A DNA stretch of 64,000 nt from positions 1,153,602 to 1,217,601 of the forward strand of contig BEIF01000001.1 in NCBI GenBank assembly GCA_002898215.1, in the 5' to 3' direction. Within the stretch, counting starts at the first letter, position 1; each line of letters starts with the position of its first letter. The notes beneath the pieces were generated by a model. That model was not told the origin of the DNA, searched no databases, and saw only the letters and a program-made list of their open reading frames with translations. Shown in pieces: positions 21,671 through 22,633 of the stretch. The DNA is from a bacterium HR29. GTDB lineage: Bacteria > Chloroflexota > Dehalococcoidia > Tepidiformales > Tepidiformaceae. Both the position numbers and the translations under genes were made by a program.

Positions 21671-22450
21671 TCAGGACGGGCGTACGGTCACCTCGGCCGC
21701 GCGAAGGGCCTCGCGGCGGCCGTCGGCGAGCTCCACCACGAGGGCGCCGTCAGCGTCAACGTCCGTCGCCCGCGCCGGATACGGCTCGCCGCTCGGCGGG
21801 TGCACGAGGATCTCGCGCCCCAAGAGCAGATTGCGGGCACGGTATTCGCGCGCGAGGCTCTGGGTCGGAGCCTCCAGCCAGGTTTCCAGCTCGTTGCAGA
21901 GGCGGGCGAGGAGCTCTTCCCGGGGAACGGGCCTCCCGGATGCGCGGCGAAGGCTCGTCGCGATGCCCCGCAGCTCCGGGTTCACCGTGGGGTCCCCGTT
22001 CACGTTGATGCCGATGCCGGGATAGGCGATGACCTCGCTGCCAGCGTACTCGGCGTCGATGAGCATCCCCGACGCCTTCTCGCCTCCAATCCAGATGTCG
22101 TTGGGCCACTTGATGCGAGCATCGGGGCAAAAGACCTCGCATGCCCGGCAGACGGCGAGCGGCACGGCCATGGGCAGGCGACGGTGCTGTTCGACGTCGA
22201 GACGGAGGACGAAGGTGGCGTAGATGTTCTCGCCACGAGGGCTGAAGAAGGACCGCCCCTTCCGCCCACGGCCGGAGGTCTGCTCCTCGGCGAGGACGAG
22301 GGTGCCGTGCGGGGCTCCCTCCGCCGCTTCGCGCCGGGCGATGTCCATCGTCGAGCCCACGACAACGCGGTAGACGAGGAAACGGCCGACAAGGCTGGTC
22401 GCGAGGTGGCCTTGGAAGGTGCGGGGGTCGAAGTCATACCGGGCGGGCAT
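21671..22450 (-). CDS. birA: Biotin--[acetyl-CoA-carboxylase] ligase
   Basis: Activates biotin with ATP and attaches it to a lysine of biotin-dependent carboxylases. The 259-aa monofunctional form lacks the N-terminal DNA-binding domain of E. coli BirA. It shows SGRGRKGRSFFS (biotinoyl-AMP loop), RIKWPNDIWIGGEKASGML and GIGINVNGD, then the C-terminal SH3-like domain. The ATG has GGAGG 6 nt upstream. A 10-bp hairpin lies 17 nt before the start codon, preceded by a 19-codon ORF on the same strand, an arrangement that could control it. Confidence 0.95.
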   Translation of the reverse strand: MPARYDFDPRTFQGHLATSLVGRFLVYRVVVGSTMDIARREAAEGAPHGTLVLAEEQTSGRGRKGRSFFSPRGENIYATFVLRLDVEQHRRLPMAVPLAVCRACEVFCPDARIKWPNDIWIGGEKASGMLIDAEYAGSEVIAYPGIGINVNGDPTVNPELRGIATSLRRASGRPVPREELLARLCNELETWLEAPTQSLAREYRARNLLLGREILVHPPSGEPYPARATDVDADGALVVELADGRREALRAAEVTVRPS

Positions 22451-22467: not shown

Positions 22468-22494
22468 GGGGGCCAGGCAGCGTACCTGGCCCCC
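22468..22494 (-). terminator. 10-bp hairpin between a 19-codon ORF and birA
   Basis: Arms GGGGGCCAGG (22468-22477) and CCTGGCCCCC (22485-22494) are a perfect inverted repeat with a 7-nt loop. There is no T-run beyond a TT. On the minus strand it follows the small ORF's stop by 24 nt and precedes the birA Shine-Dalgarno by about 10 nt, so it could end the small transcript or act as an attenuator. Confidence 0.6.
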
Positions 22495-22518
22495 TTGGCG
22501 TAGCCGACCTCGATGCTG

Positions 22519-22578
22519 TTAGGAGGAGGTCACCTCCTGCGCGTGGGTGCGGTCGCTACGACGGTAACTACTGTCCAT
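22519..22578 (-). CDS. 19-aa small ORF with perfect Shine-Dalgarno upstream of birA
   Basis: Encodes [19 protein letters not shown], ending in TAA. The start is preceded by AAGGAGGTGAT, an 11-nt exact complement of the 16S rRNA 3' tail (22583-22593 in part), at ideal spacing, and by a strong promoter with TTGACC, 17-bp spacer and TAGCGT. A hairpin follows. This gives promoter, ribosome site, short ORF and terminator-like hairpin in about 170 bp. It could be a genuine small protein or a leader peptide controlling birA. I do not recognise the peptide; it is hydrophilic with no membrane segment. Confidence 0.55.
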
Positions 22579-22604
22579 GCGCATCACCTCCTTCCCTGGC
22601 GCGC

Positions 22605-22633
22605 ACGCTACCAGAGGATGGGTACGGGGTCAA
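22605..22633 (-). promoter_or_regulatory. Promoter of the 19-aa ORF / birA
   Basis: On the minus strand: -35 TTGACC (22628-22633), 17-bp spacer, -10 TAGCGT (22605-22610). One of the best sigma-70-type promoters in the window. Confidence 0.65.

Follow-up and report, generated by a model that had tools for sequence, protein, structure and literature searches.

Upstream of birA on the minus strand of HR29, we identified a compact unit in which a promoter, a Shine–Dalgarno sequence complementary to the 16S tail (SD1), a short ORF carrying a second such sequence (SD2) ahead of its stop codon, and a hairpin follow one another, and this unit recurs throughout Chloroflexota. The HR29 copy lies within the 64,000-nucleotide stretch of DNA analysed here (the window; Table 1). 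We infer that the element is a small regulatory transcript (~130–200 nt) whose ORF would load and hold ribosomes rather than make a peptide, a reading to which we give about an even chance. The unit is more than a chance assembly, since it is conserved across the phylum and the 137-nt RNA of HR29 folds better than its shuffled counterparts (z −2.9).

Table 1 Features of the element and of birA in the HR29 window (positions count from the first letter of the window)
Feature	Position	Strand	Basis
Promoter TTGACC-17-TAGCGT, weak −10	22605..22633	-	Sequence; hexamers at the same place in relatives
−35 TTGACC; −10 TAGCGT; 17-nt spacer	22633-22628; 22610-22605	-	Sequence
SD1 AAGGAGGTGAT, 11-nt 16S-tail complement	22583..22593	-	Core invariant in relatives
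19-codon ORF, ATG 22578, TAA stop 22521-22519	22519..22578	-	Frame kept in relatives
SD2 GGAGGTGA, 8 nt upstream of the stop codon, not followed by a start codon	22530..22537	-	SD2 present in 76/77 representatives
Anti-SD CCTCCTCC	22522..22529	-	SD1 partner in the predicted fold; SD2 partner possible
Possible long-range helix, 5′ arm CGTAGCGACC	22551..22560	-	Sequence; set-wide complementarity of ORF to post-stop stretch
Possible long-range helix, 3′ arm GGTCGGCTACG	22499..22509	-	Sequence; GCTACG kept in most family members
Perfect 10-bp hairpin GGGGGCCAGG-TACGCTG-CCTGGCCCCC	22468..22494	-	Stem arms 22494-22485 / 22477-22468; terminator counterpart
birA, biotin protein ligase, ATG 22450	21671..22450	-	Pfam BPL_LplA_LipB and BPL_C domains

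The promoter, the 11-nt anti-16S site, the 19-codon ORF, the 10-bp hairpin and birA were all found on the minus strand where a preliminary description of this DNA had placed them. Its promoter claim holds for the hexamers and their spacer, but the −10 is weak and a strict consensus scan called no promoter. Likewise, the stem of the hairpin that it described as terminator-like is perfect, but TTCCGTC follows without a T-run, and a strict scan called no terminator. Relatives carry CCCTTTT(T) at that place, and the HR29 hairpin appears to be a degenerate form of the T-run terminators present elsewhere. Two features of the window had been missed, namely SD2 near the end of the ORF and a CCTCC able to pair with either SD1 or SD2.

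Because the 16S gene was not found in the HR29 assembly, the 16S tail was read from relatives. The 11-nt match reported earlier is exact against this tail: SD1 is fully complementary to it (GGATCACCTCCTTTCTA), and the 11-nt sequence occurs 6 times in the 2.34-Mb genome, compared with 1 occurrence of a reversed-pattern control. As a constant feature of the element, SD1 pairs with the 16S tail at approximately −17.5 kcal/mol. The possibility that the element is a 16S fragment was rejected, as no resemblance to the 16S end was seen outside the SD.

We fetched birA relatives from 38 genomes of the family to which HR29 belongs. In all family loci with both genes, the divergent rpsB–birA intergenic region holds the unit upstream of birA, and family loci without rpsB also carry it before birA. 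The sequence AAGGAGGTG(A/G)TGCGCATGGA is invariant among these loci except at one position, the ORF frame is kept, and internal length differences are whole codons. The preliminary description had named missing conservation of the codons or hairpin in relatives among the grounds for refuting its proposal; the ORF and hairpin proved to be conserved as architecture. All conserved parts lie on the birA strand, and a leader of rpsB on the opposite strand was rejected as an explanation.

A pattern scan of the class was combined with a sequence-only covariance model, R1, built from 28 members. Matches to R1 or the pattern came from 153/393 genomes of the class and, in a phylum-level sample of 400 genomes, from 149, the weak matches among them including false positives. 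Reading over a hundred loci yielded 115 distinct elements from ~40 Chloroflexota families. All combine a TTGACG-like hexamer and a near-perfect SD with a normally spaced start codon, and the ORF stops after 13–29 codons; with locus L140 manually excluded from the representatives as a spurious match, 114 elements remained. In 93/114, a GC-rich hairpin of at least 9 pairs was present and the 8 bases after it contained at least 3 T. The element is nearly always found in one copy per genome. One genome (G181) carries it twice (L212, C1:222500-225500; L213, C1:1523500-1526500). As the two copies do not differ over the stretch shown, they suggest a segmental duplication, perhaps with birA included. 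R1 gave no match in many of the families of the class, including f14, which may reflect loss or divergence.

As a control, R1 matched 17/299 genomes in the phylum of locus L094, which is titled Bacillota, and the matches that could be read there were either ordinary genes or short ORFs lacking a start-spaced SD2. The SD1–ORF–SD2 architecture is therefore not seen outside Chloroflexota in the genomes sampled. R1 false positives that we discarded were ordinary genes with a perfect SD, for example a response regulator (L273). Five loci of the L094 phylum (L288, L290, L299, L305 and L306) hold short ORFs that are hydrophobic (MEVFQALMLMVSFATLVVLILSFHKRK), have a perfect SD and resemble small membrane or holin-like toxin ORFs. 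Searches against Rfam 15 gave no gathering-score match for the HR29 window and one unrelated weak match (E up to 1) for eight loci, and no description of the element was found in limited literature searches of incomplete coverage. The element is thus a candidate conserved RNA family of Chloroflexota, apparently undescribed.

Conservation within the ORF is seen in SD2, at its end. SD2 was analysed in 77 representatives less than 75% identical to one another, picked by pairwise identity and not on a tree, so that p-values are overstated. Windows of 8 nt that end 8 nt upstream of the stop codon had a mean duplex energy of −9.8 kcal/mol, compared with −1.97 kcal/mol in codon-shuffled ORFs (z −37), and an SD2 of −6 kcal/mol or better was present in 76/77 representatives; no comparable pre-stop SD peak was seen in the long ORFs of the HR29 window. 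The best SD2 window ends 7–9 nt before the stop in 54/77, and the modal spacing is 7 nt both from SD1 to the start codon and from SD2 to the last sense codon. GAGG lies in frame 0 in 45/57 (p 2e-12, overstated for the sampling given above), as expected if the distance from SD2 to the stop is what is held. A C directly precedes the stop codon in 65/77, and peptides show GAG/GGG exchange at the SD2 site, which points to a nucleotide constraint. The SD2 effect is large enough that the non-tree sampling leaves the conclusion unchanged. To our knowledge, a start-spaced SD fixed before a stop codon without a start codon, in almost all members of a phylum-wide RNA family, is an arrangement that has not been described.

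The programmed frameshift site of prfB (RF2) likewise places an internal SD-like sequence shortly before a stop codon, and this likeness would make SD2 a frameshift or reinitiation signal. We consider this highly improbable and rejected it, since the open stretches downstream of the stop do not exceed those of shuffled sequence in any frame and a start codon stands behind SD2 in only 3/77 representatives. Moreover, the spacing, which is that of a start site, and the last codons (TCC, GGC, CGC) are unlike those of the prfB site, and the element has no slippery codon and no longer product in another frame.

The preliminary description had also raised a highly expressed small protein, and the corresponding alternative, that a peptide of 13–29 residues is the product and that the RNA features secure its expression, draws on the frame being kept in all members and on the whole-codon length differences within the family. 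The pN/pS ratio ranges from 0.33 to about 1 depending on the group; at 0.33–0.6 in some groups it lies below that of the other two frames, which leaves room for a peptide role and counts against the ribosome-holding view, whereas in other groups it is near 1. Between families, however, the peptides diverge completely: they do not align, they vary twofold in length, and the only residues they share are dictated by SD2 and the start. What stays fixed are features that serve ribosome binding. The start codon follows SD1 at normal spacing and codons 2–5 are A/T-rich (GC 0.45, compared with 0.65 in the remaining ORF). We therefore regard a small-protein gene as unlikely, and the pattern argues for an RNA that may engage ribosomes independently of its peptide.

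The two SDs are embedded in alternative pairings. Across the representatives, the SD1/start region shows complementarity to the remaining ORF (mean z −1.94 relative to dinucleotide shuffles, combined p 7e-28), and the ORF is complementary to the post-stop stretch (mean z −1.93, p 6e-24), both p-values overstating certainty because the representatives were chosen by pairwise identity and not on a tree. SD2 is locally paired in 72/77 representatives, and in 54/77 it pairs with a strand that also pairs with SD1. The helix sequences differ between families, as in GAGGUGaUGUGCAG/CUGCACCACCUC of f118 and GAGGUGAUGCGGA/UCCGCAGCACCUC of f17; f105 has a long SD hairpin and one f132 member a perfect 17-bp SD hairpin. 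In this member (L196, genome G572), ACATCACCTCCTTTCGT just after the stop is the reverse complement of the SD1 region over 17 nt without a mismatch. In HR29, the predicted fold has the anti-SD closing SD1 once it is transcribed, with an unpaired probability of ~0.2 for SD1, and the long-range helix of Table 1 is absent from the minimum-energy fold. The same fold leaves the HR29 SD2 partly in a loop, which, together with the lost T-run of the terminator, speaks against the ribosome-holding view.

Gene order around the element bears on what it may control. birA is directly downstream in 22 families, 7 of them outside the class of HR29, and smpB in 4; f66 has the element between smpB and birA, in the order smpB, element, birA. 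Neither gene was detected directly behind the element in 15 families. Four families, f17, f105, f110 and f154, have a convergent frame as the longest one of coding-like composition downstream; the unit can therefore stand alone. ARAGORN found tmRNA genes separately near smpB in several loci, and the identification of the element as a tmRNA was rejected. In HR29, 18 nt separate the hairpin from birA, the strict scan called no other promoter and we saw no room for one. The HR29 birA product matched the ligase and C-terminal domains and gave no N-terminal helix-turn-helix match in Pfam; it is therefore unlikely to repress its own gene.

This arrangement, with the short ORF and its SD upstream of birA on the same strand in 22 families, that of HR29 among them, could be that of a purely cis-acting leader, a translation-dependent attenuator of birA (elsewhere of smpB) in which ribosome occupancy of the ORF is coupled to the terminator. 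The birA and smpB linkage, the short gap to birA in HR29 and the existence of alternative pairings agree with such a leader, yet the unit and its SD2 persist in the 15 families with neither gene, several of which have a convergent neighbour, and the ORF lacks a run of regulatory codons. We consider this alternative possible but doubtful. The earlier proposal of a leader tuning birA thus fits the gene order of the 22 families, HR29 included, but not the remaining ones: the element is not simply a birA leader, because smpB follows it in 4 families, neither gene in 15, and several neighbours are convergent. Where birA does follow, the element may plausibly regulate it.

The ribosome-holding reading would join these observations as follows. 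Without ribosomes, the anti-SD would close SD1. When open, SD1 would load ribosomes onto the short ORF, and a ribosome getting through would terminate with its 16S tail over SD2, leaving a post-termination ribosome anchored at the stop codon. Such a parked ribosome would cover SD2 and the anti-SD, keep SD1 open and alter how the RNA folds ahead of the terminator. The element could thereby act as a ribosome-locked switch that reports how ribosomes are supplied and recycled. In families where birA or smpB lies downstream and lacks its own promoter, read-through into the gene would be set by the switch; in the others, the RNA would act alone. Post-termination ribosomes are described as only weakly held and sliding (PMC7538156), which is why an SD before the stop could matter, and it is from this published weak hold together with the spacing of SD2 that we infer parking. 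As a tentative extension, which we hold to be less probable than the ribosome-holding reading itself, the element may be a free-standing, phylum-wide ribosome-parking RNA that acts in trans or senses ribosome supply or recycling for the cell as a whole, with birA and smpB as attached outputs. A purely stand-alone RNA would be expected next to birA in fewer families than the 22 observed, which counts against the ribosome-holding reading. If SD2 does hold ribosomes after termination, the RNA could sense termination and recycling and would offer a compact system for studying the post-termination ribosome.

Several known systems share parts of this architecture. RNA thermometers and hok-like toxin mRNAs are bistable mRNAs with a sequestered SD, and the element resembles them in that an internal anti-SD, for which alternative pairings exist, may close its SD1 and start region. 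It differs from them in its hydrophilic, non-conserved peptide, in the lack of an Rfam match and in an anti-SD that also meets a second SD. SR1 is a dual-function small RNA with a short ORF; the element, judged from its sequence, is likewise a stand-alone small transcript with a promoter, a short ORF and a terminator, but here the peptide is not conserved and the two 16S-complementary SDs are the conserved part. With transcription attenuators governed by an upstream ORF (the whiB7 leader; the antibiotic-sensing topAI-yjhQ uORF, PMC12121999), the element shares a short ORF with its own SD, in most members a hairpin terminator and, in many families, a downstream gene on the same strand. Unlike these attenuators, it also occurs without any downstream partner gene, has no conserved stalling codons and carries a fixed second SD before the stop.
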